From IMG/VR virus record IMGVR_UViG_3300032313_000852, positions 1 to 51,541 of that record: a DNA stretch of 51,541 nt. One strand, 5' to 3'. This DNA comes from a virus. The notes beneath the pieces are model-generated. The model saw only the letters and a list, made by a program, of their open reading frames with translations, had not been told where the DNA came from and made no database searches. How positions within the stretch are numbered: position 1 is the first letter of the stretch; each line of letters opens with the position of its first letter. Shown here piece after piece: positions 11,033-40,102 of this stretch. Made by a program: the position numbers and the translations under genes.

Positions 11033-11463
11033 TATAATAACTCCATTGAATTAATAATATCTCTTTCTTGAACTTGATCTATCACTTCTAAACCTTCAAT
11101 TACAATACCAAAACAAGTGTGGTTTCTATCTAAATGTGATGTGTTGGTTCGACTATGACAAATAAAGAATTGTGACCCACCAGTATTTCTACCAGCATGT
11201 GCCATTGATAATACACCTCTATCGTGATATTGTTTCTCAGCGTTTACTTCACATGGAATGTTGTAACCTGGTCCACCTGCACCAGACCCATCTGGACAAC
11301 CACCTTGGATTACAAAATCAGGAAGTACTCTATGAAAGTTTAGTCCATTATAGAATCCTTTACTGATTAAATCTTTAAAGTTATTAACTGTGATTGGGGT
11401 TTCGTTATCATATAACTCTACAATCATATCCCCTTTACTTGTTGAAATTTTTACTTTGCTCAT
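11032..11463 (-). CDS. Cyclophilin-type peptidyl-prolyl cis-trans isomerase
   Basis: Nearly the whole 143-residue protein is a bacterial-type cyclophilin. Diagnostic parts are NFHRVLPDFVIQGGCPDGSG (active-site Arg, Phe, Gln), GGPGYNIPCEV, MAHAGRNTGGSQFFI, and LDRNHTCFGIVIEG. There is no signal peptide, so it works in the host cytoplasm or is packaged. It accelerates proline isomerisation during folding. In a phage it might help fold virion proteins, or might serve host takeover. Start and stop fit neighbouring genes, with a TAATG overlap at the 3' end. Confidence 0.95.
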   Translation of the reverse strand: MSKVKISTSKGDMIVELYDNETPITVNNFKDLISKGFYNGLNFHRVLPDFVIQGGCPDGSGAGGPGYNIPCEVNAEKQYHDRGVLSMAHAGRNTGGSQFFICHSRTNTSHLDRNHTCFGIVIEGLEVIDQVQERDIINSMELL

Positions 11464-11476
11464 TTGTTTATTTTAT

Positions 11477-11962
11477 TTATTCTGTTATTGTTGTTGAATA
11501 ATCTCCGACTTCGATTGTTATCGAATCGATACCACCATTAAATTCATACCAAGAATCATTTATGTCTCCCTGATTATACATATCCCATTCACTTGGTGCG
11601 AGTTCTTGCTCTTCTTCTGTTAATGGTGAGTCCCAATCAAGGTCATAAAAACTTGTGTCTCCGTCTCTTGTTTCAATTAATTCCAAACCACTAAAATCTT
11701 TATGAGTCATTTCCGTGATGTTTTTGTTTCTCAATAATTTAACTAATTGAAAAACATCCATTTCGGTTGTTTTTAACTCACCACTTCTCCAATTAATATC
11801 TGCGGATATTGAATAACTATTACCTTCCCAACCACCACTAACATAAAGTGTTTCAGTTAAACATTTCCTACCAAATGATAATGTAATAGTTAAACTATCA
11901 ACGTTCATGTAATCTTTTAATTCCCTAATAATTTTAGGATATTGTGTTGGTTTTCTAGACAT
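11477..11962 (-). CDS. Hypothetical acidic protein, 161 aa
   Basis: Not recognised. The N-terminal half is predicted beta-rich (VDSLTITLSFGRKCLTETLY, then YSISADINW), and the C-terminal half is strongly acidic (SPLTEEEQELAPSEWDMY). No membrane segment or catalytic motif is seen. It starts two bases... downstream of the small membrane gene at 11964-12143 (TGATATG), indicating cotranslation. The acidic character could suit a DNA-mimic or inhibitor, but nothing in the sequence proves that. Confidence 0.55.
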   Translation of the reverse strand: MSRKPTQYPKIIRELKDYMNVDSLTITLSFGRKCLTETLYVSGGWEGNSYSISADINWRSGELKTTEMDVFQLVKLLRNKNITEMTHKDFSGLELIETRDGDTSFYDLDWDSPLTEEEQELAPSEWDMYNQGDINDSWYEFNGGIDSITIEVGDYSTTITE

Positions 11963-13847: not shown

Positions 13848-14041
13848 GAAACGAAATTAAATTAACAAGTGTTAACATATTGAAAGATGTTTATCTTGAG
13901 TTTAAAAAAAATACTGTTGAAACAGATATGAATTTACAAAAATTAGTTAATAGATGTATTGATTTATACTCTAAAGATGAAAAATTTAAAGAAATAATCA
14001 ATACCCATAAAACTCTTGGGGTTAAAAATTCAAAATATTAA
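13844..14041 (+). CDS. Ribbon-helix-helix-like small protein, 65 aa
   Basis: The sequence EIKLTSVNILKDVYLEFKKN followed by TDMNLQKLVNRCIDLY has the strand-helix-helix spacing of Arc/CopG-type DNA-binding proteins: a polar strand, then a helix, a short turn, and a second amphipathic helix. It overlaps the GIY-YIG gene by ATGA and precedes the first glycosyltransferase. It could regulate the sugar operon or the nuclease, but this is inferred from fold and position only. Confidence 0.5.
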   Translation: MRNEIKLTSVNILKDVYLEFKKNTVETDMNLQKLVNRCIDLYSKDEKFKEIINTHKTLGVKNSKY

Positions 14042-14045
14042 TATA

Positions 14046-15404
14046 TTGAAAAAGAGAATATTATTGTTATCGGACGATTTAAGAATGACTTCAGGTATTG
14101 CTACGATGTCAAAAGAATTTGTTTTAGGTACTCTTCACAAATACGATTGGATACAATTAGGTGCGGGTATTAACCATCCTGAAGTTGGTTCTGTGGTTGA
14201 TATAAACGAAGATGTTAGGAAACGTACAGGAATTAAAGATGCAGACTTAAAAATAATACCTAATAATGGTTATGGTGATATACATACACTTAGAAAATTA
14301 TTAAAAGAAGAAAGAATAGACGCTATTTTACATTTTACCGACCCACATTATTGGCAATGGTTATATGAGAATGAGCATGAGATAAGACAACAAGTTCCAA
14401 TTTTATATTATCACATATGGGATAATTTACCAGACCCTTTTTATAATAGAAATTTTTATGAAAGTTGTGATTGGTTAGGTTGTATTTCTAAACAAACATA
14501 TGGTATTGTTCATCGTGTTGGTAAATCAAAAAAAGAATTGACATATAAACCATTAGAAGATTGGCAAATTAGTTATGTTCCTCACGGTATTAATCCTGAT
14601 GTTTTTAAACCAATAGATGAAGTCCCTGTGGATGTTAAGAATACTTTGCTTCAAAATAGACAATATGATTTTGTTTTATTTTATAACAGTAGAAATATAA
14701 GAAGAAAACAACCGAGTGATGTTATCTATTCATTTAAATTATTTTGTGATAATCTACCTAAAGGTGAAGCTGATAGATGTTTACTTTTAATGCACACAAA
14801 CCCTATTGATGAGAATGGTACGGATTTACCTGCGGTTAAAGATGCGGTTTGTCCTAATTACATGGTGACATTTATAAACACTAAAATTGAACAGAGTCAA
14901 TTAAATGAAATCTATAATTTAGTTGATTGTACAATCAATATTGCAAACAACGAAGGTTTTGGTTTAGGTACATCAGAAAGTATTATGGCCGGTACTCCAA
15001 TCATTGTAAACGTTACTGGTGGTTTACAGGACCAATGTGGTTTTGATTATAGTGCCGATGATTATATTGAAATTGGTTCATTACATGATAAGAAAAGATT
15101 TGGTGACACTCCTTCGGGTGAATGGGTAATTCCAGTTTGGTCATCAGCTAGTAACATCAATGGTTCAGTAATGACCCCATACATCTTTGACGACAGAGTT
15201 AATGATTATGATGTGTCAGATGCAATTATGAAAATGTATAAAATGGGTGGAGAAAAAAGAAAAGAGTGTGGATTGAAAGGAAGAGAATGGGCAATTAAAA
15301 ATGTTTCATCTAAAGTTATGTGTGATAGTATGATTGAGGGTATTGAAACCACATTTAAAAATTATAAACCAAAAAAGAATTTTAATTTATATAAGATAGT
15401 ATAA
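14046..15404 (+). CDS. Glycosyltransferase, GT4-like
   Basis: The longest frame starts at a TTG at 14016, overlapping the previous gene, but the TTG at 14046 gives MKKRILLLSDDLRMTSGIA, a normal beginning for a GT-B fold enzyme, five bases after the upstream stop. No ATG is nearby. The donor half contains NNEGFGLGTSESIMAGTPII, the ExFG-like motif of GT4 enzymes with the acidic residue for nucleotide-sugar binding, and TGGLQDQCG. The N-terminal acceptor half has HFTDPHYWQW and LYYHIWDN. It would transfer a sugar from a nucleotide sugar. It is the first of a run of glycosyltransferases. Confidence 0.85.
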   Translation: MKKRILLLSDDLRMTSGIATMSKEFVLGTLHKYDWIQLGAGINHPEVGSVVDINEDVRKRTGIKDADLKIIPNNGYGDIHTLRKLLKEERIDAILHFTDPHYWQWLYENEHEIRQQVPILYYHIWDNLPDPFYNRNFYESCDWLGCISKQTYGIVHRVGKSKKELTYKPLEDWQISYVPHGINPDVFKPIDEVPVDVKNTLLQNRQYDFVLFYNSRNIRRKQPSDVIYSFKLFCDNLPKGEADRCLLLMHTNPIDENGTDLPAVKDAVCPNYMVTFINTKIEQSQLNEIYNLVDCTINIANNEGFGLGTSESIMAGTPIIVNVTGGLQDQCGFDYSADDYIEIGSLHDKKRFGDTPSGEWVIPVWSSASNINGSVMTPYIFDDRVNDYDVSDAIMKMYKMGGEKRKECGLKGREWAIKNVSSKVMCDSMIEGIETTFKNYKPKKNFNLYKIV

Positions 15405-15405
15405 T

Positions 15406-16668
15406 ATGAATAAACAAACATTATTATTTAGAGGTCCGGTTAAATCAAGAAGTGGATATGGTTCACATTCAAGAGATTTGTTAGAAGCGTTGTATCAAAT
15501 GGATATATACGACATAAAAATTGATAGTTGTTTATGGGGAAACACTCCGATGAATGCTCTTGAAAAAGATAATAAATTTCATAAATGGATAGTTGAAAAT
15601 TCAGTATCAGAATTTAATGGTTTACCAGACATATATGTTCAAGTAACTGTACCGAATGAATTTCAACGTTATGGTAAGTTTAACATTGGAATCACTGCCG
15701 GTATTGAAACCACGTTAGCACCTAAAGATTGGATTGATGGATGTAATAGAATGGATTTAATTATTGCCACTTCTAATTTTTCGAGAGATGTTTTATTAAC
15801 AACAGTTTATGACGAAAAAGAAAAAAATACTGATAAATTAGTAAAAAAACATAGAATTGAAAAACCTATAGAGGTTTTATTCGAGGGTGTTGATACTAAC
15901 ATTTACAATAATGTTGTTAACCCATCATTTGAATTAGACATTAAGGAAGATTTCGCATATCTTTTTGTTGGTCATTGGTTAAAAGGAAACATAGGTCAAG
16001 ATAGAAAAGACGTGGGTATGTTGATTAAAACATTTGCCGAAACATTTAAAGATAAATCTGAATGTCCTGCACTTATTTTAAAAACATCATCAGCAGTATT
16101 TTCAGTAATTGAACGTGAATCGTTTAGGAAAAAAATTAAGAGTATTTTAACCGGTATAAACAATCCACCCCCAATATATTTGTTATTTGGTGACCTAACA
16201 AATAAAGAGATGAATGATTTATATAATCACCCAAAAATTAAATCAATGGTGTCGATAACCAAAGGTGAGGGATTTGGTAGACCTTTATTAGAATTCACAA
16301 TGACAGGTAAACCTGTGATAGCATCAAATTGGTCAGGACATAAGGATTTTCTATCAATGGAAAGTTCAGTAATGATTGGCGGGGCTTTGACTGAAGTTGA
16401 TGATAGTGCAGTTGATAATTTTATATTAAAAGGTTCAAAATGGTTTACTGCCAATTATGATGAGTTTTCTCAGGTTTTAATTTTAGTTAAAGAACAATAT
16501 GATAAATTTTTAAATCGTTCAGAAGTGTTGAGAATTGAAAATTCAAATAAATTTTCATTGACTAAAATGAAAGAAGTATTCTCATCCTTAATTCAAAGTA
16601 AAGTAATGGTACCAACTAAAGTAAATTTAATATTACCTAAATTAAATAAAGTACAGGGTAAAATCTAA
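15406..16668 (+). CDS. Glycosyltransferase, GT4-like
   Basis: The 420-residue protein starts two bases after the preceding GT. It begins with LFRGPVKSRSGYGSHSRD, a glycine-rich GT-B loop, and has VLFEGVDTNIYNN in the middle and TKGEGFGRPLLEFTMTGKPVIASNWSG in the donor half, the GT4 signature with the two acidic residues. Similar layouts are found in the N-terminal part of the 911-residue fusion at 34105-36840. The acceptor is unknown; position suggests it extends the same glycan as its neighbours. Confidence 0.85.
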   Translation: MNKQTLLFRGPVKSRSGYGSHSRDLLEALYQMDIYDIKIDSCLWGNTPMNALEKDNKFHKWIVENSVSEFNGLPDIYVQVTVPNEFQRYGKFNIGITAGIETTLAPKDWIDGCNRMDLIIATSNFSRDVLLTTVYDEKEKNTDKLVKKHRIEKPIEVLFEGVDTNIYNNVVNPSFELDIKEDFAYLFVGHWLKGNIGQDRKDVGMLIKTFAETFKDKSECPALILKTSSAVFSVIERESFRKKIKSILTGINNPPPIYLLFGDLTNKEMNDLYNHPKIKSMVSITKGEGFGRPLLEFTMTGKPVIASNWSGHKDFLSMESSVMIGGALTEVDDSAVDNFILKGSKWFTANYDEFSQVLILVKEQYDKFLNRSEVLRIENSNKFSLTKMKEVFSSLIQSKVMVPTKVNLILPKLNKVQGKI

Positions 16669-16677: not shown

Positions 16678-17013
16678 ATGGATTTTAAATTTTTTTCTGG
16701 TAAACAATCTGGGTTAGAACCAACACAATTATTATCATTAAGACGTAATGATTTTAAATTTTTTCATGGGTTAGTTAAAGGAAGAACGACAGTTGTGTGG
16801 ATGCCTGAAACTGATGGTAGAGATTATTATGGTTTGGATGTTGAACAAGAATTAACAAGACTAATGTCAAGAGAAATCGCTCGTGGAATTGATAATGAAA
16901 TTATTAATAGACTAACAGAATTAATGAGCGATGAGGGTAATCAAATAGTTGAAAGAAATGTAAATGCGGATTACCTACAACGTTATTTAAATATGGGGGA
17001 AAACGTAGCATGA
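16678..17013 (+). CDS. Hypothetical protein, 111 aa
   Basis: Not recognised. Two related short segments, DFKFFSGKQSG and DFKFFHGLVKG, appear in the first 35 residues about 22 residues apart. The second half has a helix EQELTRLMSREIARGIDNEI that faintly recalls helices of T4-type capsid proteins; this is visual only. There is no membrane segment. It lies inside the sugar operon, nine bases after a glycosyltransferase gene, and its stop overlaps the next gene by ATGA. Its role in the operon is unclear. Confidence 0.5.
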   Translation: MDFKFFSGKQSGLEPTQLLSLRRNDFKFFHGLVKGRTTVVWMPETDGRDYYGLDVEQELTRLMSREIARGIDNEIINRLTELMSDEGNQIVERNVNADYLQRYLNMGENVA

Positions 17014-17323: not shown

Positions 17324-17944
17324 ATGAAAATAAGTTTTGCCATTACTGTGTGTAATGAAATAGAAGAAATAAAAAAATTGGTTTCATTTATTTTAGAACA
17401 CAAAAGACCTCAAGACGAAATTGTTGTTCTATATGATGATAAAAATGGTAATCCTGAAATATTAGATTTCTTACTTCCATTTAACATCAAACCAAATGTT
17501 CAAACATGGAGATGTTTTGATTGGAATAATAACTTTGCAGATTGGAAAAACATATTAAATGGTTATTGTGAGGGTGATTACATTTATCAGTTAGATGCCG
17601 ATGAAATGATTAGTGAATATATGATTAAAAATCTATATCAAATATTAGAAATGAATTCTAACGTGGATTTAATATTTGTTCCTCGTATTAATACCGTTAA
17701 TGGTATAACCCAAGAACATATCGATAAATGGGGTTGGAGGGTTAATGAAAATGGATGGGTAAATTTTCCAGATACTCAAGGAAGAATATACCGTAAAGGT
17801 ATGAGTTGGTATGGTAAAGTACATGAACGAATAATTGGTGGTCAAAAATTTTCATCATTACCATTAGATGAGGAATATTGTATCCAACATCATAAGACAA
17901 TCGAACGTCAAGAAAAACAAAACAATCTATATAATACAATATGA
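17324..17944 (+). CDS. Glycosyltransferase, GT2-like
   Basis: The 206-residue protein starts MKISFAITVCNEIEEIKKL, a typical GT-A first strand with CNE, and has YIYQLDADEMISEYM, in which DADE is the metal- and nucleotide-binding DxD. The C-terminal part has WYGKVHERIIGG and a His-rich end (CIQHHKTIER), as in the family of waaE-like and SunS-like GT2 enzymes. It overlaps the epimerase gene by four bases. Target and sugar are unknown. Confidence 0.83.
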   Translation: MKISFAITVCNEIEEIKKLVSFILEHKRPQDEIVVLYDDKNGNPEILDFLLPFNIKPNVQTWRCFDWNNNFADWKNILNGYCEGDYIYQLDADEMISEYMIKNLYQILEMNSNVDLIFVPRINTVNGITQEHIDKWGWRVNENGWVNFPDTQGRIYRKGMSWYGKVHERIIGGQKFSSLPLDEEYCIQHHKTIERQEKQNNLYNTI

Positions 17945-18933
17945 AAATTTTAATTACGGGAGTTGCCGGTTTAATTGGTTCAAGACTTGCAGACTATATT
18001 ATTATGAATGAACCAGATGTGTATATAGTTGGTATTGATGATTTAAGTGGTGGGTACATTGAAAATGTTAACCCCAAAGTTGAACTGTGGCAAATGAATT
18101 TAATAAATGGAAACATTTCAGAATGTTTTGAAAGACATCAATTTGATTATGTTTATCATATGGCTGCATATGCGGCTGAAGGGTTGTCTCCATTCATAAG
18201 AAGTTACAATTATCAAAACAATTTAGTTGCCACATCTCGTATTATCAATGAATGTATAATACACAATGTTAAAAGACTAATCTTCACATCTACGATGGCG
18301 GTTTACGGGCATGGTAATGGTGACATATTTAATGAAACTCAGGTTCCTTGTCCGGTAGACCCATATGGTATCGCAAAGTATGCGTGTGAAATGGATATTA
18401 AGGTCGCTGGTGAACAGCATGGGTTGGATTGGTGTATTGTACGTCCACATAATGTTTATGGTGTTAAACAAAACATATGGGACAAATATCGTAACGTATT
18501 AGGTATTTGGATGTATCAACATATGAATGGTGAACCAATGACAATTTTTGGTGATGGTATGCAAAAAAGGGCGTTTAGTTATGTTGATGACTGTTTGGAA
18601 CCCCTATGGAAAACATCTCAACAAGATAATTGTTCAAAAGAAATCATCAACCTTGGTGGTACCATTCATTATACAATTAATGAAGCAAATGATATTTTAA
18701 AAAATGTAATTAAGGGTGGTGAAACAATATATAAAGAACAAAGACATGAAGTTAAAAATGCCGTACCCACCTGGCAAAAATCTGTAGATTTATTGGATTA
18801 TAAAGATGAGACTTATTTACATGATGGTTTAGTTAAAATGTGGAAATGGGCTCAAACACAACCTAATCGTGAAAGATTTGTTTGGGAAAATTATGAAATT
18901 TCTAAAGGAATTTATGAATTTTGGAAAAAATAA
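17941..18933 (+). CDS. NAD-dependent nucleotide-sugar epimerase/dehydratase
   Basis: An extended SDR enzyme of 330 residues with the NAD-binding GVAGLIGSRLA at the N-terminus, DDLSGG at the end of the second strand, TSTMAVYG, and the catalytic YGIAK (YxxxK). RPHNVYGVKQ matches the sugar-binding part. The layout fits UDP-glucose 4-epimerase-like enzymes, although the exact substrate cannot be told. It sits just ahead of the aminotransferase and could provide the keto-sugar or epimer for it. No rare features in the active site are seen. Confidence 0.87.
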   Translation: MKILITGVAGLIGSRLADYIIMNEPDVYIVGIDDLSGGYIENVNPKVELWQMNLINGNISECFERHQFDYVYHMAAYAAEGLSPFIRSYNYQNNLVATSRIINECIIHNVKRLIFTSTMAVYGHGNGDIFNETQVPCPVDPYGIAKYACEMDIKVAGEQHGLDWCIVRPHNVYGVKQNIWDKYRNVLGIWMYQHMNGEPMTIFGDGMQKRAFSYVDDCLEPLWKTSQQDNCSKEIINLGGTIHYTINEANDILKNVIKGGETIYKEQRHEVKNAVPTWQKSVDLLDYKDETYLHDGLVKMWKWAQTQPNRERFVWENYEISKGIYEFWKK

Positions 18934-18960: not shown

Positions 18961-20142
18961 ATGAAAAAAGAAATCCCTTTATTTAAAGTTTTTATGGCTG
19001 ACACTGCAGCTGAAGAAGTAGGAAAGGTACTAAACAGTGGTTTTATTGGTCAAGGATCTAAGGTTGATGAGTTTGAAACTAAATTAACCGATTATTTTCA
19101 ACATCCATACATTACAACATTAAACTCAGCAACTTCAGCTGAACACTTAGCTTTACATTTAATTAAAAAACCAAAAAGTTTTACAAAGGCGGATGGTTAT
19201 GGTGTAAGAGAAAATGTTTGGGAAGGTATTGAAGAGGGTGATGAAGTTTTAACAACACCATTAACTTGTACCGCAACTAATTGGCCAATACTTGCTAATA
19301 ATTTTAAAATTAAATGGGTTGATATTGATCCTAATACATTAAACATGGACATGGATGATTTAGAAAGAAAAATCACCAAAAAGACTAAAGTCATTATGGT
19401 TGTTCATTGGGGAGGTTATCCAAATGATTTAGAAAGACTTAGACAAATTCAAGAAAAATCAATGCGTTTGTATGGATTTAAACCTGCGGTTATTGAAGAC
19501 TGTGCTCATTCAATGGGTAGTAAGTATAAAGGTAAACTAATTGGAACTCACGGTAACATTTGTACATTTTCATTACAAGCAATTAAACACATCACATCGG
19601 TAGATGGTGGTTTGTTATTTTTACCTCATCAAGAATTAAACAAAAGAGCTCGATTATTAAGATGGTATGGTATTGATAGAGATAGTCCAAGAAAAGACTT
19701 TAGATGTGAAGCCGACATTGAGGAGTGGGGTTTTAAATTTCATATGAATGATGTTAATGCTGCTGTGGGTATTGAGAATTTTAAACATATTGATGAGATT
19801 GTTGGTAAACATAAGGCTAATGCAAAATATTATGATGATAAACTAAAAAATGTACCAGGTCTAACATTATTAGAAAGGAACCCTGATATGGAAAGTGCGT
19901 TTTGGATTTATTCAATACTTGTTGATAGGAAAAATGACTTCATGAGATATATGAAAGAATGTGGAATTGCTGTTTCTCAAGTACATGAAAGAAATGATAT
20001 TCATACTTGTGTTAAAGAATATCGTTCATTGTTGCCAAATTTAGATAAAACTATTGGTCGAGTAATTTCGATACCTATTGGCTGGTGGTTAAGTGATGAG
20101 GATAAAAAATACATAGTGGACTGTATTAAAAAAGGATGGTAA
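18961..20142 (+). CDS. DegT/DnrJ/EryC1/StrS-type sugar aminotransferase
   Basis: This PLP enzyme of 393 residues transfers an amino group to a keto-sugar nucleotide. The PLP lysine is Lys209 in FSLQAIKHITSVDGG, the Asp contacting the pyridine nitrogen is Asp180 in IEDCAHSMGS, and the N-terminal LNSATSAEHLAL holds the phosphate-binding part. The family makes amino sugars such as viosamine and perosamine. A 26-base leader and A-rich start precede it. A following set of methyltransferase, ketosynthase, reductase and acyltransferase genes may finish an acylated amino sugar. Confidence 0.93.
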   Translation: MKKEIPLFKVFMADTAAEEVGKVLNSGFIGQGSKVDEFETKLTDYFQHPYITTLNSATSAEHLALHLIKKPKSFTKADGYGVRENVWEGIEEGDEVLTTPLTCTATNWPILANNFKIKWVDIDPNTLNMDMDDLERKITKKTKVIMVVHWGGYPNDLERLRQIQEKSMRLYGFKPAVIEDCAHSMGSKYKGKLIGTHGNICTFSLQAIKHITSVDGGLLFLPHQELNKRARLLRWYGIDRDSPRKDFRCEADIEEWGFKFHMNDVNAAVGIENFKHIDEIVGKHKANAKYYDDKLKNVPGLTLLERNPDMESAFWIYSILVDRKNDFMRYMKECGIAVSQVHERNDIHTCVKEYRSLLPNLDKTIGRVISIPIGWWLSDEDKKYIVDCIKKGW

Positions 20143-21107
20143 TGGATAAAGTGATAGACGAATCTTTTTTAAAATCTGATGTAACGGAATTTGCATTAGG
20201 ATACGATAGAGTTAAAAACCACACATGGTATGATAACTTAAATTATTTAGTTGACTTATCTAAAGAATATTTCAATGACGATGATTTTATTATGGATTAC
20301 TCTTGTGGTACTGGAATATTTCCTGAAAGATTACTGAAATCAACTGTTAGTTGTCCAAGGATTTTGATGATGGACTCATCTCCAAAGTATCTTAAATTAT
20401 CATATGATAAATTTGGTAATAATTACAAATTCTTTTTTAGATTAATGAAATATCTAAAAGAAGAGAATAGATTACAAACCATCGATGAGTCTATGGGTAA
20501 GGACTATAAAGAACTGTTAGATGGTATTATATGCACCAACGCAATTCATCTTTATCCAAACATTTCAGACACAATAAAGTCTTGGGATAAACTATTAGTT
20601 AAAGGGGGTAAATTGTTAATAAATTCTGGTAATATATTCAACCCGTCTATGGATAGTGAATCAAAATTAATAGACCAAACGGTAAATGAAATTGCTAAAC
20701 TGTCTTATAAAATTGTTAAAGAAACACCAAAATATTCAAAATATTCTGATTTAATTAACGATATCGAATATATAAAAAAACACGATTTATTAAGAGATAA
20801 GTATTTTTTGCCTGTTAAGAATATTGAATATTATACCAATGAAATTTTAAAGAACAATTTTAAAATTTTAGAAATAAAAACAATCAATATCGATGCGAAA
20901 GTTGATGAGTGGTTTGAATTTCTAAAAGTATATCATGAAGGCATTATTAGTTGGGTTGGTGGTGCAAATAAAATAACTGGTGTTGACCCAAAAGAAAATG
21001 AAGTTGGAGATAGGATTGAAATAATAAAATTGGCTTTAAATGAAATGTTTAATAATAAAAACGATTTTAAAGCATGTTGGAATTACATAATTTGTGAAAA
21101 ACTATGA
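20142..21107 (+). CDS. Class I SAM-dependent methyltransferase
   Basis: The ATG at 20142 forms a TAATG overlap with the aminotransferase stop; an ATG six bases earlier is also possible. The N-terminal third has FIMDYSCGTGIFPERLL (motif I), LMMDSSPKYLKL (end of strand 2), and DGIICTNAIHLYPN (motif II), followed by GGKLLINSGN. It is a Rossmann methyltransferase of about 321 residues with a helical C-terminus that likely binds acceptor. In this context it could O-methylate a sugar. The exact acceptor is not shown. Confidence 0.82.
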   Translation: MDKVIDESFLKSDVTEFALGYDRVKNHTWYDNLNYLVDLSKEYFNDDDFIMDYSCGTGIFPERLLKSTVSCPRILMMDSSPKYLKLSYDKFGNNYKFFFRLMKYLKEENRLQTIDESMGKDYKELLDGIICTNAIHLYPNISDTIKSWDKLLVKGGKLLINSGNIFNPSMDSESKLIDQTVNEIAKLSYKIVKETPKYSKYSDLINDIEYIKKHDLLRDKYFLPVKNIEYYTNEILKNNFKILEIKTINIDAKVDEWFEFLKVYHEGIISWVGGANKITGVDPKENEVGDRIEIIKLALNEMFNNKNDFKACWNYIICEKL

Positions 21108-21853
21108 GTAAGTGTGCTAAAGTAATATGTACTTATTTCGGTAATCGTAGAACTCATGTCTATAATAACCCAAAAGATATGATGTCATTTTTTTTAAAAA
21201 TGATGAAAAATGAGGTTAGTGTTGATATGGGTATTGATACAGATGTTATTTTAGTTAATAATGATTGTGGAAAGCCCGAAATTAATGAAGGTGTTAACAG
21301 ATTTAATAACAATAAAACAAAAAATGGTAAGGTTATTGTTGAACAAAGAGAAAACATTGGTGGTTCTTTTGGTTCATATTTTGATATGTTTGAAAAATAT
21401 TCTTCAGAATACGATTATTTCTTTTTTTGTGAAGATGATCATATAATCTTTAAAGAGGGTTATATGAAAGATTTTGTGGACTTTATTGATTCAGATGAAA
21501 AGGTTGGGTATGTTGCGTTAGCTCCAATCACTTTACTTGGATTAAATAACTTACCCGTTCATTCTGGTGGAGGTATTGGATTAACTTCAACCAAAAATTT
21601 TAACAAGGTGTATGGTGAAGGTTCAAAATGTAATTTTAGAAAGGAAATGAGACATAATCAACCGTATCATTTCTTACAAAATTATGAAAGTAGATTTAAC
21701 TCTAATTTCATATTACATGGTGGATTTGAAATTAAAAATCACCCAAAATATTCTTGCATTCCAAATAATTATAAAAATTTCGAATCTAACTATATAAATT
21801 ATTTAAACGAAGAAAGTTTACAAAAAGAGTTTATTTATAATGTAGGAGAATAA
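21104..21853 (+). CDS. GT-A fold glycosyltransferase-like protein
   Basis: The 249-residue protein has an ENIGGSFGSYFDMFE stretch and YFFFCEDDHIIFKEGYMKDF, where EDDH takes the place of the DxD motif of GT-A enzymes. The N-terminal CTYFGNRR region and the later HSGGGIGLT also fit a nucleotide-sugar transferase. It overlaps the methyltransferase by ATGA. There is no close family name; a GT2-related glycosyltransferase is the best reading. Confidence 0.7.
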   Translation: MSKCAKVICTYFGNRRTHVYNNPKDMMSFFLKMMKNEVSVDMGIDTDVILVNNDCGKPEINEGVNRFNNNKTKNGKVIVEQRENIGGSFGSYFDMFEKYSSEYDYFFFCEDDHIIFKEGYMKDFVDFIDSDEKVGYVALAPITLLGLNNLPVHSGGGIGLTSTKNFNKVYGEGSKCNFRKEMRHNQPYHFLQNYESRFNSNFILHGGFEIKNHPKYSCIPNNYKNFESNYINYLNEESLQKEFIYNVGE

Positions 21854-21863
21854 TATTAAAACT

Positions 21864-22751
21864 ATGAAAAATTACACACAAAACTCAGAAGAAATGAATT
21901 GGCCATGGGTCGAATCCCCGTTTTTTAATGAGTTATTAAAAAATCAGGATTTAACTGACGAACAAAAGGAATTAGCTACCAAATTTAACAAGGATGGTTA
22001 TGTTGTTATTGATTTAGGATTAAGTGACGAAGAAATCGAACAATGTAAACTTGATGTTAATTTTTTAAATAATAAGGATGATGCTAATATTCAAAATCCA
22101 AGATACCATTACTCACAAGGTAAGAGAATATTTGAGGCTTGGAAAGAGTGTGAATCTTTATTATGGTTAGCAAATCACCCTAAGGTATACGATACATTAA
22201 AGATGTTATATAAAAGAGAACCATACCCTTTTCAAACAATAACCTTTAATTATGGTTCTAATCAACCATTACATAGTGACACAATACATTTTGATTCAAT
22301 GCCACAAAGATGGTTATCCGCAGTGTGGGTGGCTCTTGAAGATATGACCGAAAGTAATGGTTCCTTACTATATGTTCCTGGTTCACATAAACTACCCATA
22401 TTTGATTTTTATGACTTAAAACTTAAATGTGCAGGGTTCGATGACCAATTTGATTCTTATGCTGAATATGAAGAATTCATTAGAAAGTTAGTTGAGGTTG
22501 GTAATTTAAAAACAGAACCGTTAATTTGTAAAAAGGGTCAAGCTCTTATTTGGTCTGCGAATCTAATACACGGGGGTGACATAATCAGAGACCCCAATAG
22601 TACTCGTTACTCTCAAGTAACCCATTACTATTATGATGATTGTGATGTATATCATTCTCCGATGTTTTCTGAAAGATGGAAAGGTAAATTCGCACATAAA
22701 GATTTAGTTTCAAAAAATATTAGAGACCATAAAATAAATAAAAATGATTAA
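21864..22751 (+). CDS. Phytanoyl-CoA dioxygenase (PhyH) family 2OG-Fe(II) oxygenase
   Basis: The iron ligands are His137 and Asp139 in QPLHSDTIHF and His236 in NLIHGGD, and Arg248 in NSTRYSQ is placed to bind 2-oxoglutarate. VPGSHKLP is the PhyH consensus. The 295-residue enzyme would use O2 and 2-oxoglutarate to hydroxylate an organic substrate. Between the sugar aminotransferase and the FabH-like gene, the acyl chain or sugar itself is a plausible substrate. It overlaps FabH by 8 bases. Confidence 0.88.
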   Translation: MKNYTQNSEEMNWPWVESPFFNELLKNQDLTDEQKELATKFNKDGYVVIDLGLSDEEIEQCKLDVNFLNNKDDANIQNPRYHYSQGKRIFEAWKECESLLWLANHPKVYDTLKMLYKREPYPFQTITFNYGSNQPLHSDTIHFDSMPQRWLSAVWVALEDMTESNGSLLYVPGSHKLPIFDFYDLKLKCAGFDDQFDSYAEYEEFIRKLVEVGNLKTEPLICKKGQALIWSANLIHGGDIIRDPNSTRYSQVTHYYYDDCDVYHSPMFSERWKGKFAHKDLVSKNIRDHKINKND

Positions 22752-23682
22752 AATAGATAATGTTGGTATTATTGGGATAGGTTCATATGTTCCTGATAAA
22801 ATATTAACAAATGAAGAAATTGATTTATCAGGAATAGGAACTGATTCATCTTGGACCAAAGAAAAATTAGGGATTGAAGAAAGAAGAGTTGTTGTGGATG
22901 AGAACCCATCAGATTTGGCATATCACGCAGCGATTGCCGCAATCAAAGATGCCGGTATTGATAAGGAAGAAATTGATTTAATAATTGTTGCAACATCAAG
23001 TCCAGATAGGATATCGCCATCTACGGCATGTATAATGGCTAAGAGATTAGACGTTAAAAAACCTGCGTTTGATATAAACGCCGTATGTACTGGATTTGTA
23101 TACGGTGTCCAACTCGCGACAAATTTAATTAGTACCAAACAATATAAAAAAATATTATTAATAGGTGCCGATGCATATTCTAAAATAACAGATTGGACTA
23201 AAAGAGATTGTGTATTCTTTGGTGATGGTGCTGGTGCAATTATATTATCAGAAGTTAATGGTGGATGGGTTAGTACTGATATATTTGGTGACGCAAACGG
23301 TAAAGAGGCGTTCACTTGTCATCATTCAGGTAAGTTTAGAATGGATGGTAAAGCGGTTTATGAATTTGGTACAAGTACATTACCTAAAACAATTAAAAGT
23401 TCATTAGAAGAATTACAAATACCTAAAGAAGATGTTGCTTGGATAATACCACATCAACCTGGTCATAGAGTTTTATTAAAAACCGCCGAACTTCTTGATT
23501 TTCCTTTAGATAAAATGGTTTTTAACATGACAAAGTTTGGTAACACTGCAGGTGCTTCTATTCCTATGGCTTTAGATTCATTATATAGACAAAATAAAAT
23601 TAATAATGGGGATATTTTAGTTCTACCCGCAATCGGGTCTGGTTGGACATTTGGTGTAAGTGTTATAAAATATGTAAAATGA
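22744..23682 (+). CDS. 3-oxoacyl-ACP synthase III (FabH/KAS III-like)
   Basis: A complete 312-residue thiolase-fold enzyme. The catalytic triad of KAS III is intact: Cys115 in DINAVCTGFVYG, His237 in IPHQPGHRV, and Asn267 in FGNTAGAS. FabH condenses acyl-CoA with malonyl-ACP to a 3-oxoacyl-ACP. In this operon it more likely makes a short 3-oxoacyl group for sugar decoration than starts fatty acid synthesis. An SDR reductase starts right behind it (ATGA), which could reduce the 3-oxo group. No acyl carrier protein is seen in the window, so the host carrier would be used. Confidence 0.93.
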   Translation: MIKIDNVGIIGIGSYVPDKILTNEEIDLSGIGTDSSWTKEKLGIEERRVVVDENPSDLAYHAAIAAIKDAGIDKEEIDLIIVATSSPDRISPSTACIMAKRLDVKKPAFDINAVCTGFVYGVQLATNLISTKQYKKILLIGADAYSKITDWTKRDCVFFGDGAGAIILSEVNGGWVSTDIFGDANGKEAFTCHHSGKFRMDGKAVYEFGTSTLPKTIKSSLEELQIPKEDVAWIIPHQPGHRVLLKTAELLDFPLDKMVFNMTKFGNTAGASIPMALDSLYRQNKINNGDILVLPAIGSGWTFGVSVIKYVK

Positions 23683-24323
23683 AAAAATTAATAGTATTTG
23701 GAGGTACAGGTGGATTAGGACAAAAACTAATACCATTTTTAGAAAAAAAATATGATGTTACTTCAGTTGGTAGTAAAGATGTTGATATCACGTCATTTAG
23801 TGAAGTTCAGAAATACTTTAATGATAAAGATTTTGATATTGTACTAAACATGAGTGGAAGTAAGTACGATGTGTTTTTAAGTAAAATTAAAGATAGTGAC
23901 CAAGAGGACATCAATAAAATGATTGATGTTAATATAAAAGGAAATATCAATATTGTATCTTCTTGTTTACCTAAAATGATTGAAAAGAAATATGGTAGGA
24001 TTATTTCAATCTCTTCAGTTTTTTCTGAACTTAATGTTCCCAAGAATTCAATCTATTGTGCGTCAAAGGCTTTCGTTGATAGATTTATAAGTAACGCAAA
24101 TAAAGAAAATGTGAAGTTTGGTATAACTTGCAACACAATTCAATTAGGTTATTGGGATGGAGGTATGTGTTATAGGGTAGATGAAAAATATCAAGAGATG
24201 GCTAAGGAAAAAATTGGTTTAAAGAGGTGGGGAAAAATTGAGGAATTACATAACACCATTGATTATATCATAGAAAATGAGTACGTTTCTGGTACAAATT
24301 TAAGGATAGACGGAGGACTATAA
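23679..24323 (+). CDS. Short-chain dehydrogenase/reductase, FabG-like
   Basis: The start at 23679 (MKKLIVFGGTGGLGQ) overlaps the FabH stop as ATGA; a longer frame upstream has no support. The 214-residue enzyme has the NAD(P) glycine motif, NMSG, and the catalytic Ser (SISSVFSE) with YCASKAF (YxxxK). It ends LRIDGGL, as FabG enzymes do. Coupled to FabH it would convert a 3-oxoacyl to a 3-hydroxyacyl thioester. Direct reduction of a keto-sugar is the alternative. Confidence 0.88.
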   Translation: MKKLIVFGGTGGLGQKLIPFLEKKYDVTSVGSKDVDITSFSEVQKYFNDKDFDIVLNMSGSKYDVFLSKIKDSDQEDINKMIDVNIKGNINIVSSCLPKMIEKKYGRIISISSVFSELNVPKNSIYCASKAFVDRFISNANKENVKFGITCNTIQLGYWDGGMCYRVDEKYQEMAKEKIGLKRWGKIEELHNTIDYIIENEYVSGTNLRIDGGL

Positions 24324-24332
24324 ATAAATCAT

Positions 24333-24911
24333 ATGTACATACACAAAAACGGAATTGCATTACGCAAATTAGAAAGAACGGACCTACCAAAATTAAAAGA
24401 TTTAAAAAATGAATCTTGGTTTGGTACGCACAACATCACATTATTAAATGATTATGAACAAGAAAAATGGTTCGAGTCTTTAAGTAGACACACTCATTTA
24501 ATATTAATTGCTATTGACACTAAAACAAACAATGAAGTTGGTTTGTATAAAATACAAAACATTGATTGGTATAATAGAACCTACGATTCCTCTCATGATG
24601 TTTTTAAAGAACATAGAGGTCAAGGATTATCAAAACCAGTTCTTTGTGCCGGTACCGATTTCGCCTTTGAAGTTTTAAACATGAATAGGATTGACGGTGA
24701 GATATTAGAAAACAATGTCGCTAGTATAAAGTCAGCTGAATATGCTGGTTTTAAACATGAAGGTATTAGAAGAAAATCAATCCATAAATGTGGTGAGTAT
24801 TTGAATAGTATTCATATTGGAATATTAAAAGAAGATTGGATTAACTTAGATAGAATAAAACAATATGGTGGAATATGTAACACATCTTACCAACCTAAAA
24901 ATGATTTATAA
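24333..24911 (+). CDS. GNAT-family acyltransferase, RimJ/RimL-like
   Basis: The protein of 192 residues has the acetyl-CoA-binding HRGQGLSKPVL and the RimL-type MNRIDGEILENNVASIKSAE, then YAGFKHEGIRRK. The family moves acyl groups from CoA (or carrier) to amines, including 4-amino sugars. Following FabH and SDR, it may attach a 3-hydroxyacyl or acetyl group to the amino sugar made by the aminotransferase. The acyl donor cannot be told from sequence. Confidence 0.88.
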   Translation: MYIHKNGIALRKLERTDLPKLKDLKNESWFGTHNITLLNDYEQEKWFESLSRHTHLILIAIDTKTNNEVGLYKIQNIDWYNRTYDSSHDVFKEHRGQGLSKPVLCAGTDFAFEVLNMNRIDGEILENNVASIKSAEYAGFKHEGIRRKSIHKCGEYLNSIHIGILKEDWINLDRIKQYGGICNTSYQPKNDL

Positions 24912-24914: not shown

Positions 24915-25661
24915 ATGAAACTTAATAAATTTTTAATCGCAATCGTTTATTACGAGAGACCTAAAGTGTTAATAAATGCTTTAAAATCTATTTTAGATAT
25001 TTCATACCCTGAGTTTGAAGTTCATTTAATTGACGATGGTTCCACTAACAGAGCTGAACCTATTGTTAGAGATGTGTGCGCATCAATAATTGATAAGTTT
25101 AAGTTTAGTTACATAGAAAATACCATTGAACAAAAGAAAGAACAAGGTGGTAGTCTTCATGGACAATACTTAACTGAAGCGATAAAGGAAAGTGATGCTG
25201 ACCATGTTATTGTGTTATGTGATGATGATGCGATTTATCCACATTTTTTAACTAAATTAAATTTACTAATAAACAAACCAGAAAATAAGGATAAGAACTA
25301 TTTTTACCATAACATAGTTTTATATGATTGCCTTAGAGAACCATACACTAACGGTGTTGAAAGGGGTGATTTAAGTTATTTTACTAATCAGTGGAAAGTG
25401 CCAATACATTGTTCAGGTAGAGTTGATGGTTCACAGGTGACTTATAATAGAAAAAGATTTGTTGAGGATGGTATCATATATCCTGCACCACAAACGTCTG
25501 GTTTAGACTCTTCATCATTTATACAAATGTTTGATAAATGGGGATTAGCCGAATATAGTAAATTGATATCTCAAGTTAAATCTAATAATGAAGATAATTT
25601 AGTTTGGAAAGATATGGACGAAAACAAGGATGTTATTTACCAAACAAAAGATATGAAATAA
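24915..25661 (+). CDS. Glycosyltransferase, GT2 family
   Basis: The N-terminal LIAIVYYERPKVLINALKS and LIDDGSTNRAEP are characteristic of GT2, with a later HVIVLCDDDAIYP carrying the DxD motif. At 248 residues it is a soluble single-domain enzyme. It starts three bases after the acyltransferase stop. It may transfer the finished acylated amino sugar, though this is inferred from position. Confidence 0.85.
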   Translation: MKLNKFLIAIVYYERPKVLINALKSILDISYPEFEVHLIDDGSTNRAEPIVRDVCASIIDKFKFSYIENTIEQKKEQGGSLHGQYLTEAIKESDADHVIVLCDDDAIYPHFLTKLNLLINKPENKDKNYFYHNIVLYDCLREPYTNGVERGDLSYFTNQWKVPIHCSGRVDGSQVTYNRKRFVEDGIIYPAPQTSGLDSSSFIQMFDKWGLAEYSKLISQVKSNNEDNLVWKDMDENKDVIYQTKDMK

Positions 25662-25662: not shown

Positions 25663-26400
25663 ATGAAGATTACATTATACACCATTTGTTATAACGAACA
25701 AGAGATTTTACCATATTTTTTAAACCATTATTCTAAAATGGTTGATAAAATTGTGGTTTATGATAATCAATCTACAGATAATTCAAGACAGATATTAGAA
25801 TCATTTAAAGATTGTGAAATAGAAATAATTGATTACGATACCGATAATCAGTACAGCGAAGAATCTCAAACAAACCTTAGGAATAATTGTTGGAAAAATG
25901 ATACAGATTCTAACTATATTATTGTTGTAGATATTGATGAGATAATATACCACCCTAAGTTTAGAGAGTTCTTAAGAAATAACATAACCGTTGATTGTTT
26001 TAAACCAGTTGGATATGACATGATTGGTGATGATGTTCCTACTGATTATAGTAAAGAAATTTATGAAATTATTAAAACTGGAACATTAAACACTATGTAT
26101 TCTAAAGTTGCACTTTTTAGACGTAAAAATATATTAGAAACAAATTTTACATATGGTTCACATTTTTCATCTTTCATTGGTGATAAACCATTAATAATTC
26201 ACGAATCAAAAGGTGATTTAAAATTATTACATTATAAATGTTTAAGCTACGAGTATGTTGTTAAAAAACATAATGATTATTCCAAAAGAAAATCTGAATT
26301 TAGCAAAAGACTTGGTTTAGGATTTCATTATGATTTTGGTAGAGATAAAATTTTAGAAGAGTTTAATAAATTAAAAGATAGCTCAACTCAAGTTATTTAA
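25663..26400 (+). CDS. Glycosyltransferase, GT2_4-like
   Basis: The start MKITLYTICYNEQEILPYFL, then VVYDNQSTDNSRQILE and IIVVDIDEIIYHP (DxD as DID), fit the Glyco_tranf_2_4 group. A His-rich C-terminal part (HFSSFIGDKPLIIHESKG) may bind acceptor. It shares its stop with the following epimerase (TAATG), so expression is coupled. Confidence 0.83.
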   Translation: MKITLYTICYNEQEILPYFLNHYSKMVDKIVVYDNQSTDNSRQILESFKDCEIEIIDYDTDNQYSEESQTNLRNNCWKNDTDSNYIIVVDIDEIIYHPKFREFLRNNITVDCFKPVGYDMIGDDVPTDYSKEIYEIIKTGTLNTMYSKVALFRRKNILETNFTYGSHFSSFIGDKPLIIHESKGDLKLLHYKCLSYEYVVKKHNDYSKRKSEFSKRLGLGFHYDFGRDKILEEFNKLKDSSTQVI

Positions 26401-27374
26401 TGAAAAAAATATTAATATTAGGAGGTGGTGGATTCATAGGTGGACATCTTTCAAAAAGGTTAATGAATGAAGGTAACTTTGTTCGTGTTGTTGATATTAA
26501 AAATCACGAATACTTTGATGAAAATGAATTTTGTAATGAATTCATTAAATGTGATTTGAGAAAACCATATGAGGTACATAAGGTTATGTGTTTAGTTGAG
26601 GGTTCTTTTGATGAAGTGTATCAATTAGCCGCTGATATGGGTGGGGCAGGTTATATTTTTACGGGAGAAAATGATGCTGATGTTATGCATAATTCGGTGC
26701 TAATTAATTTAAATGTTTTGGACACCGCAATTAGAACGGGTGTTAAAAAAATATTCTATTCATCATCAGCATGTATATATCCTGAACATAATCAATTAGA
26801 CCCTAAAAATCCAAATTGTGAAGAGTCGTCAGCATATCCTGCAAATCCTGATTCTGAATATGGTTGGGAGAAATTATTTAGTGAGAGGTTGTATTTGGCT
26901 TATAATAGAAATTATGGAATTGATGTTAGAATTGCTCGTTTTCATAATATATTTGGACCATATGGTACATATAAAGGTGGTAAAGAAAAGGTACCAGCGG
27001 CATTATCTCGTAAAATTGCTGAAGCATTAGATGGTGGCGAAATTGAGGTTTGGGGTGATGGTAAACAAACTCGTTCATTTTTATATATTGATGAGTGTAT
27101 TGAAGGTATGATTAGATTGATGGATTCTAATTTTACGGGACCATTCAACATTGGGTCGGAAGAAATGGTAACAATAAATGATTTAGCTAATAACATCATT
27201 GACATTAGTGGAAAAATGATTTATATTAAAAATATTGAAGGTCCTACGGGTGTTAGGGGTCGAAATAGTGATAATAATTTAATAAAAGAAAAGATAGGTT
27301 GGTCACCCACACAACCATTATATACCGGTCTAATTCAAACATATGAATGGATTGAAAAACAAATAAAAAAATGA
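26400..27374 (+). CDS. GDP-mannose 3,5-epimerase-like extended SDR
   Basis: This 324-residue enzyme is very close in pattern to GDP-mannose 3,5-epimerase, which makes GDP-L-galactose and GDP-L-gulose. It has GGGGFIGGHLS, QLAADMGGAGYI, SSSACIYPE, EYGWEKLFSE, ARFHNIFGPYGTYKGGKEK and GDGKQTRSFLYIDECIEG. Ser123, Cys125, Tyr154, Lys158 and Lys197 correspond, at a constant offset of 20, to the known catalytic residues Ser143, Cys145, Tyr174, Lys178 and Lys217 of the plant enzyme. It should be active. It implies that an L-galactose-type or L-gulose-type sugar is used in the glycan. Confidence 0.9.
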   Translation: MKKILILGGGGFIGGHLSKRLMNEGNFVRVVDIKNHEYFDENEFCNEFIKCDLRKPYEVHKVMCLVEGSFDEVYQLAADMGGAGYIFTGENDADVMHNSVLINLNVLDTAIRTGVKKIFYSSSACIYPEHNQLDPKNPNCEESSAYPANPDSEYGWEKLFSERLYLAYNRNYGIDVRIARFHNIFGPYGTYKGGKEKVPAALSRKIAEALDGGEIEVWGDGKQTRSFLYIDECIEGMIRLMDSNFTGPFNIGSEEMVTINDLANNIIDISGKMIYIKNIEGPTGVRGRNSDNNLIKEKIGWSPTQPLYTGLIQTYEWIEKQIKK

Positions 27375-28480
27375 ATATAAGTTTCGTATTAGCCGTTTAC
27401 AATAAGTTAGAATTAACAAAAGAATGTTATAAAAATCTTCGTAAGGTTTATCCAAAGGCACCATTAGTTATTAGTAGTGGTGGTTCTTCAGATGGAACAA
27501 AAGAGTGGTTAGAATCGTTAGACGATGAGAACTTATCATTATTTCATGATGATGATAGATTAACATTTTCAGAAACTTATAATGCTGGTATTGATTTAGT
27601 TGATACCGAGAAATTGGTTCTTATTCATAATGACATGGTCATTGGTAAAGGGTTTTTAGAAAATTTAGATAGGTTGTTGGATGAGAATCCAAATACGTTA
27701 TTATCATACACAACGATTGAACCACCAATCTTTGAAGGACATAAAAGACCAGGTAAAGTGATACTTGATTTGGGAACTGGTTTTAATAATTTTAATCAAA
27801 AAAAGTTTAACAAATACGTTAAAGAAAATAATAATAAATGTGACTTATATGACGGAGCAGTATTCTTTATGAGTGGTCGTAAAGAAATGTTTGTTGACTT
27901 GGGTGGTTTTGATGGATTTAGTTTTGTTCCATGTTTTTGCGAAGATGATGATTTTTTAATTAGAGCAAAATTAAAAGGATATAAATTAAAAACAACAGAA
28001 TGTGCAATCACATATCATTTTGTTTCTCAAACATCAAGATTTAGTGATGAGATGAAAGATAAAAGACAGGACATTGAAATATTTTCAAATAGAAATTTTA
28101 TTAGAAAATGGGGTATAACGATATCTACATTTAATCAATTAGGTTATCAAACTCAAGATGATTTTACATTTAAAAAATTATCATTAGGGTTAACAACAAA
28201 TAACAATGAATATATTGGTTTATTGGAACCATTCTTTAATAAAATTAAAACGGATTCATTACCAACGGATTATATTAAATTTGAACAAGAAACCACTAGA
28301 TATGATTTGAAATCTAAGTTTGAAGGTACTCCTGACGTGGATGTGATGGTTAATATCTTATCAGAAATTACACAAGATGATTTCAATGTTTTAACAACAT
28401 TAAGATTGGCAGTTCAACAATACTCACCAGGGACATATAAAATTGGTAATTTAACAATAGAGATTTTAAAAGATTTGTAA
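27371..28480 (+). CDS. Glycosyltransferase, GT2 family
   Basis: The 369-residue protein starts MNISFVLAVYNKLELTKECY, with SSGGSSDGTKEWLE and LVLIHNDMVIG (NDM in place of DxD) and GGFDGFSFVPCFCEDDDFLIRAKLKG, a typical GT2 layout including the ED acidic site. The C-terminal 100 residues are an unassigned extension. It overlaps the epimerase by ATGA and is the last gene of the plus-strand operon; its stop lies one base from the stop of the convergent gene, with no terminator hairpin between. Confidence 0.85.
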   Translation: MNISFVLAVYNKLELTKECYKNLRKVYPKAPLVISSGGSSDGTKEWLESLDDENLSLFHDDDRLTFSETYNAGIDLVDTEKLVLIHNDMVIGKGFLENLDRLLDENPNTLLSYTTIEPPIFEGHKRPGKVILDLGTGFNNFNQKKFNKYVKENNNKCDLYDGAVFFMSGRKEMFVDLGGFDGFSFVPCFCEDDDFLIRAKLKGYKLKTTECAITYHFVSQTSRFSDEMKDKRQDIEIFSNRNFIRKWGITISTFNQLGYQTQDDFTFKKLSLGLTTNNNEYIGLLEPFFNKIKTDSLPTDYIKFEQETTRYDLKSKFEGTPDVDVMVNILSEITQDDFNVLTTLRLAVQQYSPGTYKIGNLTIEILKDL

Positions 28481-38367: not shown

Positions 38368-38864
38368 ATTAATTTATTTATATCAAATTTTACATGTTCA
38401 CTTTGTAAAAACCAAAGTAATGAGTATCTTTCCCCACTTAAAATAGGTGTAATTTCATGTTCAATTCTCACATCAAATAAATAAGTATTTCCCATTTCTT
38501 TATTTAACATATATTCATCTGGATTGTATAATTTAAAATCACCACCACTAAAATCATTATTTAATAAAACACCAACAGCATATACCCTATCGTCTCTAAT
38601 ATCGTTATGTTTTCCGAACCAATCACCTTTCGTAAATTTATGAAAATGTATCGTTTTATTTATTGTTCTAATTTCAATTTTTGTTTCCTTTTCCACATAA
38701 TCCTTCAATTTATCAAATAACCAAATAGTATTTTTACTATATTCTATACTCATTGATTCATATATTCTATCTTTGTAGTTCCAATTTTGTTTTTTTAATT
38801 TTGATATATCAATAATTGATTGACATTCTTGTTGATTAAATAATATTTTTTGTATTAAAAACAT
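38364..38864 (-). CDS. 2OG-Fe(II) oxygenase, P4H-like
   Basis: The 166-residue protein fits a prolyl 4-hydroxylase-type double-stranded beta helix: FHKFTKGDWFGKHNDIRDDR (HxD), VGVLLNNDFSGGDFKLYN, and IEHEITPILSGERYSLLWF with the distal His and the 2OG-binding Arg. It needs Fe(II), O2 and 2-oxoglutarate. Despite the family name there is no proline-rich target in the window, so hydroxylation of a sugar or other residue is more likely. It overlaps both neighbouring SGNH genes by a few bases. Confidence 0.88.
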   Translation of the reverse strand: MFLIQKILFNQQECQSIIDISKLKKQNWNYKDRIYESMSIEYSKNTIWLFDKLKDYVEKETKIEIRTINKTIHFHKFTKGDWFGKHNDIRDDRVYAVGVLLNNDFSGGDFKLYNPDEYMLNKEMGNTYLFDVRIEHEITPILSGERYSLLWFLQSEHVKFDINKLI

Positions 38865-39490: not shown

Positions 39491-39504
39491 TTAAATTAAA
39501 TAAT

Positions 39505-40092: not shown

Positions 40093-40102
40093 ATTAATTT
40101 AA

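Follow-up and report, generated by a model that had tools for sequence, protein, structure and literature searches.

The virus record IMGVR_UViG_3300032313_000852 is a linear record of 51.5 kb, which was analysed over its whole length and is called the window in the following. Between positions 18961 and 24911 it contains seven consecutive genes on the plus strand that either overlap or are spaced by at most about 10 bases (Table 1). The genes encode a DegT sugar aminotransferase, an S-adenosylmethionine (SAM)-dependent methyltransferase, an open reading frame (ORF) for a possible glycosyltransferase (GT), a PhyH-type oxygenase, a FabH-like 3-ketoacyl synthase III (KAS III), a FabG-like ketoreductase of the short-chain dehydrogenase/reductase (SDR) family, and a GNAT N-acyltransferase. 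Matches to Pfam and NCBIfam models agree with the families, coordinates, and strand given in an initial annotation of this DNA, which had named six of the genes but had omitted the ORF at 21104-21853 inside the set. All genes of the set have dN/dS ratios of 0.03-0.17 compared to their relatives; purifying selection acts on all of them. Because of these ratios and the recurring order DegT..FabH-SDR-GNAT in other phages, the gene set is not a chance arrangement.

Table 1. Genes of the set at 18961-24911, neighbouring genes of the window, and an additional gene in one relative (PLP, pyridoxal phosphate).
Feature	Position	Strand	Remarks
DegT sugar aminotransferase	18961..20142	+	PF01041, E 5e-77; PLP lysine K209 in SLQAIKH
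SAM-dependent methyltransferase	20136..21107	+	weak Methyltransf_12 (E 8e-5)/Methyltransf_23 matches
ORF, possibly GT-A-like glycosyltransferase	21104..21853	+	FCEDDH motif, by eye
PhyH-type Fe(II)/2-oxoglutarate oxygenase	21864..22751	+	PF05721, E 5e-19; overlaps the FabH start
KAS III (FabH-like)	22744..23682	+	PF08541/PF08545; catalytic Cys115/His237/Asn267
SDR, FabG-like ketoreductase	23679..24323	+	adh_short_C2, E 2e-24; GGTGGLG, S112/S113-Y126-xxx-K130
GNAT N-acyltransferase	24333..24911	+	E 5e-11; proposed acylation of the 4-amino group
Two glycosyltransferases heading the locus	14016..16668	+	syntenic with Immutovirus gp181-gp180
GT2 glycosyltransferase, upstream	17324-17944	+	syntenic with Flavobacterium phage immuto
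NAD-dependent sugar epimerase, upstream	17941-18933	+	TSTMAVYG; under the 4,6-dehydratase cut-off
GT2, downstream	24915-25661	+	
ORF, downstream glycan block	25663-26400	+	
SDR epimerase, GDP-fucose-synthase/3,5-epimerase-like	26400-27374	+	GDP-L-fucose synthase is the best curated match, below cut-off
GT2, downstream	27371-28480	+	
Formyltransferase-domain ORF	L017 (G004) 11043-11645		between DegT and FabH; PF00551, E 9e-11

The aminotransferase and its sugar

Among all solved structures, DegT scores highest with AtmS13 (406 bits, 51% identity) and CalS13 (363 bits, 45% identity), and the next family follows at 120 bits. The structures concerned are 4zas for CalS13 and 4xau/4zwv, which carry the title 'putative aminotransferase' in the PDB and which we take to be AtmS13. 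The region around the PLP lysine K209 aligns with that of the solved relatives. Given the score gap of more than 240 bits and the motifs, the phage DegT is clearly a member of the CalS13/AtmS13 subfamily, whose enzymes are sugar C4 aminotransferases. CalS13 converts dTDP-4-keto-6-deoxyglucose into an amino sugar with the configuration of viosamine (4-amino-4,6-dideoxyglucose), and both CalS13 and AtmS13 serve antibiotic sugars of actinobacteria. A C4 amino sugar as predicted product of the phage enzyme is therefore well supported. Viosamine would be the leading candidate, with a 4-aminopentose as a real alternative given that DegT is only 45-51% identical to the two enzymes. The best DegT in 396 Bacteroidota genomes is only about 42% identical, so this sample of the phylum contains no apparent recent donor among cellular genomes.

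FabH is separate from the housekeeping enzymes

FabH reaches 306 bits with the PRK09352 model, whose cut-off is 249. The catalytic residues Cys115, His237, and Asn267, which the initial annotation had already described as intact, are invariant across four phage FabHs. In the same 396 Bacteroidota genomes, five FabHs stand out with 289-328 bits, followed by one at 235 and all others from about 221 down. The phage FabHs form one group in a maximum-likelihood tree (support 100/100) and join these five special Bacteroidota FabHs (100/99), apart from the clade of the housekeeping FabHs (99/96), whose inspected loci have the order plsX-like, FabH, fabD-like. The tree program warned of long branches meeting, so that the exact sister group of the phage FabHs is unsure. 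Based on the tree placement and the gap in the bit scores, the phage FabHs are separate from housekeeping FabH. A grouping with the fatty-acid enzymes, which had been named beforehand as the outcome that would speak against a role in sugar modification, is thus not seen, and we rejected the housekeeping assignment because of the separate clades.

The top-scoring cellular FabH is located within a polysaccharide locus of the genome G253. This locus contains, in this order, an aminotransferase-like ORF, a GNAT, FabH, an SDR, a Wzx-type flippase, and a glycosyltransferase-like ORF; the aminotransferase-like ORF was recognised by eye and gave no match in Pfam. Further FabH matches in INPHARED were set aside, being at most 39% identical and mostly located in unannotated contigs.

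The ketoreductase and the acyltransferase

The FabH stop and the SDR start overlap in the tetranucleotide ATGA, as had been noted before. This start is a conserved ATG at 23679, whereas the mechanical ORF list had placed it at 23643. The SDR is FabG-like yet scores under every curated FabG cut-off.

Compared to solved structures, spermidine/diamine acetyltransferases rank first for the GNAT, and the Rim proteins (RimJ/RimL) are weaker matches. Its five nearest relatives in 251 genomes of one Bacteroidota family, that of G253, are all found in polysaccharide loci beside sugar aminotransferase-like or NeuB-like genes, with these neighbours identified by eye or by similarity to proteins of the window. 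The kinship with ribosomal-protein acetylases, which the initial annotation had considered a possible refutation, was therefore rejected. The scan of genome contigs with the GNAT gave a single irrelevant match (29%, Hymenobacter), which was used only as a centre for sampling the Bacteroidota. The AlphaFold models of the GNAT and of the ORF at 21104-21853 are of poor quality, with confidence (pLDDT) values of 34-35.

Linkage and possible exchange of genes in related phages

Four IMG/VR relatives with FabH were found. The complete set of seven genes is present in G001, G002 matches the order of the window up to the point where its contig ends inside FabH, G003 has the set without the methyltransferase, and G004 lacks both the methyltransferase and PhyH. 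The order DegT..FabH-SDR-GNAT, whose recurrence in other phages had been suggested as a check, is kept in G001, G003, and G004, and G002 is consistent with it up to the contig end. Between the window and G004 the identity is 80% for FabH, 81% for the SDR, and 91% for the GNAT versus 64% for DegT, which suggests that FabH, SDR, and GNAT may travel as a cassette. In L025, L026, and the 595-kb phage LR756511, a GNAT homologue directly follows DegT and FabH-SDR is missing at that place. Because of this adjacency, DegT and GNAT seem to be the core pair. The simplest reading would be that DegT-GNAT constitutes a core, possibly ancestral, N-acylation pair, into which FabH-SDR as an added acyl-building module, PhyH, the methyltransferase, and formyltransferase-like genes have been inserted as tailoring modules.

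No solved relative of the methyltransferase was found at E<=0.05. The ORF at 21104-21853 has no match in Pfam or NCBIfam; homologues are present in G001, G002, and G003, but G004 has no close homologue at the same place. In PhyH, the HxD...H residues (H137, D139, H236) and the 2-oxoglutarate-binding arginine R248 are invariant in three phages. The initial annotation had counted the methyltransferase and, tentatively, PhyH as parts of the pathway; they do belong to the set of the window but are dispensable in relatives, and thus both are optional. G004 has a formyltransferase-domain ORF where other relatives carry the methyltransferase and PhyH, hinting at an exchange of tailoring genes between relatives.

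A putative pathway to an acylated amino sugar

Starting from the observed gene identities, conservation, subfamily placement, and linkage, we think that the set probably encodes a cytoplasmic pathway for an N-(3-hydroxyacyl) 4-amino sugar. With the substrates, the sequence of reactions, the length of the acyl chain, and the target as we would propose them, DegT would transaminate a 4-ketosugar nucleotide, most likely the dTDP-4-keto-6-deoxyglucose of the host, to dTDP-viosamine (4-amino-4,6-dideoxyglucose). FabH would condense an acyl-CoA, probably acetyl-CoA, with malonyl-ACP (ACP, acyl carrier protein) of the host to 3-ketoacyl-ACP, the SDR would reduce this to 3-hydroxyacyl-ACP, and the GNAT would transfer the 3-hydroxyacyl group onto the sugar amine. 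In some relatives, further hydroxylation by PhyH and methylation by the methyltransferase could follow, and in one relative the formyltransferase-like gene might act instead. Phage glycosyltransferases would then add the sugar to a glycan, and the carrier of this glycan would most likely be a protein of the own virion, e.g. the nearby collagen/S74 fibre.

Partner genes were searched for in eight phage records, including a complete genome of 160 kb and one of 595 kb, and the controls gave positive results. Six of these records are linear entries of IMG/VR and probably fragments. Neither a Wzx-type flippase nor an undecaprenyl-phosphate (lipid-linked) sugar transferase was found in the eight records, and the window encodes no polytopic membrane protein. 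Because the flippase and the transferase were not found, a virion protein seems a more likely target than an exported polysaccharide. The missing flippase, transferase, and membrane protein would fit glycosylation of proteins in the cytoplasm but do not prove it. G003 encodes RmlC (E 8e-61), an enzyme that uses the same pool of dTDP-4-keto-6-deoxyglucose.

Several observations weigh against the proposed pathway. No dTDP-glucose 4,6-dehydratase (TIGR01181) above the cut-off and no PP-binding match indicative of an ACP were detected in the eight phage records, most of them fragments. The initial proposal of an N-acylated 4-amino sugar made with an own KAS III and ketoreductase is supported. Because dehydratase and ACP were not found, the pathway probably draws on dTDP-4-keto-6-deoxyglucose, malonyl-ACP, and ACP of the host. 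The 74-residue gp176 of Flavobacterium phage immuto was rejected as ACP, since it lacks the DSL motif and the immuto genome has no PP-binding match. For three of the five special Bacteroidota FabHs, the neighbour is a FabI-like gene instead of glycan genes, and therefore this FabH group is not exclusively linked to glycans. Similarity of the GNAT to characterised sugar acyltransferases is weak (E 1e-5 for the PseH model, compared to E 7e-9 for spermidine acetyltransferases), and the methyltransferase can barely be assigned by its weak Methyltransf_12/23 matches. AtmS13, the closest solved relative of DegT, is reportedly assigned to the biosynthesis of an aminopentose, so that the sugar may be a pentose. 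In addition, the tie between the pathway and a virion protein is a prediction from gene content.

Alternative explanations

The sugar could be a 4-amino-4-deoxypentose derived from a 4-ketopentose nucleotide, in line with the role of AtmS13, instead of viosamine, which would leave the logic of the acylation unchanged. DegT is indeed nearer to AtmS13 (51%) than to CalS13 (45%). However, G003 encodes RmlC of the dTDP-hexose pathway, and a gene of the UDP-glucuronate decarboxylase type was not identified in the window, so we regard a pentose as rather unlikely but worth serious consideration. The same chemistry could also end on the lipopolysaccharide or capsule of the Bacteroidota host during infection, for example to act against superinfection. 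The best cellular parallels are loci of the O-antigen type, and the O-polysaccharide of Flavobacterium psychrophilum has a 4-amino sugar with a 3,5-dihydroxyhexanoyl group, for which ketoacyl synthase, ketoreductase, and acyltransferase genes are proposed to be responsible (PMC6519341). Such a host-surface product is unlikely given that the phage records lack the Wzx flippase and the undecaprenyl-phosphate sugar transferase and the window lacks polytopic membrane proteins, although the flippases of the host would still be usable.

It is very unlikely that FabH and SDR are auxiliary metabolic genes for fatty-acid synthesis of the host and unrelated to the sugar genes. FabH has an intact catalytic triad and scores above the cut-off of the general KAS III model, and fabH on rumen viral contigs has been interpreted in terms of fatty-acid metabolism (PMC5704599); one survey of prophages found no fabH (PMC8224337). 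However, the phage FabH is placed outside the housekeeping clade, it is located between DegT and GNAT in all relatives found and not beside plsX, fabD, or fabF, and its best cellular relative belongs to a polysaccharide locus. Linkage and tree thus point to glycan tailoring and not to fatty acids, which would alter the interpretation of fabH on viral contigs. It is hard to imagine that the glycan is attached to phage DNA as a base hypermodification instead of to protein. The window contains a thymidylate-synthase homologue and DNA methyltransferases, and phage glycosyltransferases are described as capable of DNA hypermodification (Pyle et al. 2024, as cited in PMC12619734). Yet no gene for base hydroxylation or hypermodification was identified, and the many glycosyltransferases and enzymes of sugar modification, together with the S74/collagen fibre gene close by, suit protein glycans better.

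Comparison to known systems

In Pseudomonas syringae, the viosamine island (vioA, M, T, S, B, R, and acp) produces N-(3-hydroxybutyryl)-2-O-methylviosamine on flagellin (PMC3927599). As there, aminotransferase, methyltransferase, KAS III, ketoreductase, and acyltransferase genes are linked in the phage set, all five within 18961-24911, and a glycosyltransferase is part of the cluster. Unlike the island, the set is borne by a phage, has an optional methyltransferase, an additional PhyH, and the DegT-GNAT core, and does not include an acp. The likeness to this island claimed in the initial annotation therefore holds for the five linked kinds of genes and fails for the dedicated ACP, of which the eight records gave no PP-binding match. 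Because the ACP is absent and the two were compared by gene content only, we do not class the phage set as a member of the vio islands.

The O-polysaccharide genes wfpC-wfpG of F. psychrophilum, a species of the same phylum as the likely host, are proposed to provide 3,5-dihydroxyhexanoyl for Qui2NAc4N, with two ketoacyl synthases and one reductase acting together with an ACP and an acyltransferase of the PglD type (PMC6519341). Common to both systems are the 3-ketoacyl synthase, the ketoacyl reductase, and the acyltransferase for a hydroxyacyl group on a 4-amino sugar. The PglD-type WfpG, the ACP WfpD, the second synthase, the Wzx/Wzy export, and the sugar Qui2NAc4N are features of the F. psychrophilum system. 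The phage set thus does not contain an R-group module of this type: its acyltransferase is a GNAT and not PglD-type, and ACP and Wzx-type flippase are missing.

Mimivirus makes the 2-O-methyl-4-N-acetylviosamine of its fibrils by own enzymes (R141, L136, L142, R132; PMC8456856, PMC10117803). Both viruses encode an aminotransferase for a 4-amino sugar together with an N-acyltransferase and a candidate O-methyltransferase, and the glycans of Mimivirus are located on its own particle. The aminotransferase and N-acyltransferase pair is present in the phages as DegT and GNAT, which are part of one set in the window and direct neighbours in three other phages. In contrast, Mimivirus is a giant virus of eukaryotes, adds only acetyl groups, and has its own 4,6-dehydratase, and KAS III and ketoreductase are not reported in its cluster. 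The phage set would work like a mixture of these systems, viral like the Mimivirus system and acyl-building like those of P. syringae and F. psychrophilum.

Of the cultured phages, Flavobacterium phage immuto (vB_FspM_immuto, NC_055915) is a relative that carries the half of the locus around DegT. It shares the syntenic order GT-GT-small ORF-GT2-DegT with the window, with identities of about 46% for the GT at 14016, 42% for the GT at 15406, 49% for the GT2 at 17324, and 58% for DegT. However, in immuto DegT is not followed by GNAT, FabH, or SDR. Instead, the phage has a second DegT-like protein, which is short (214 aa, annotated as WecE), and directly after it an acyltransferase resembling PglD (L048, 14736-15949). 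Immuto thus carries another kind of aminotransferase-acyltransferase pairing.

In the open-access literature, searched to a limited extent, we found no description of a phage KAS III with a connection to the N-acylation of sugars. This chemistry has so far been known from bacterial surface sugars and, in a simpler form, from giant viruses. As a tentative proposal, tailed phages of Bacteroidota could use host precursors to make an N-(3-hydroxyacyl) amino sugar, with the acyl chain built by their own KAS III and ketoreductase, that is displayed on the virion and whose tailoring genes (methyltransferase, PhyH oxygenase, formyltransferase-like) are swapped between strains like O-antigen groups, resulting in a surface serotype. 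If the product is located on virions, it would represent an exchangeable coat of acylated sugars, comparable both to the variation of bacterial O-antigens and to the glycan with viosamine on giant viruses, with a bearing on adsorption and recognition of the phage particles.

Host and surrounding genes

In addition to the synteny with immuto, the window encodes a thymidylate synthase of the phage type and a protein resembling collagen/S74 tail fibres. The virus is a lake-type tailed phage, probably of Flavobacterium-like bacteria, with a Flavobacterium-like member of the Bacteroidota as our best guess for the host. The SDR epimerase at 26400-27374 contains SSACIYPE and resembles GDP-mannose 3,5-epimerase by eye. 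A second glycan-tailoring block is encoded on the opposite strand at 31317-51518 and includes a GT4-FkbM methyltransferase fusion, a GT9-type protein, GDSL/SGNH-type hydrolases, a Nol-like carbamoyltransferase (46876-48540), an APS kinase (45584-46018), and, by eye only, a possible sulfotransferase (42372-43061). Three ORFs of a run of short ORFs at 38364-42360 match 2OG-Fe(II) oxygenases (38364, 39505, and 41162), and those at 40103 and 41746 resemble them by eye. At 2489-3551, adjacent HesB/IscA-like, ferredoxin-like, and IscU-like ORFs look by eye like a phage iron-sulphur assembly set, which is conserved in G002 and partly in G003.

The motif M-x(1-4)-[FY]KF[FL] opens about 18 short ORFs of G003 that are dissimilar in the rest of their sequence, five in G001, and one each in G002 and in the window (16678-17013). 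The motif-bearing ORFs are located in the loci L014-L016 of G003, mainly at 37.4-47.0 kb, and at 1.5-2.5 and 25.5-26.1 kb of G001. In G003, 17 matches are found in the first 45 residues of 118 ORFs compared to three in 13,033 interior residues. The shared start could possibly be a leader, a targeting tag, or an embedded DNA element.

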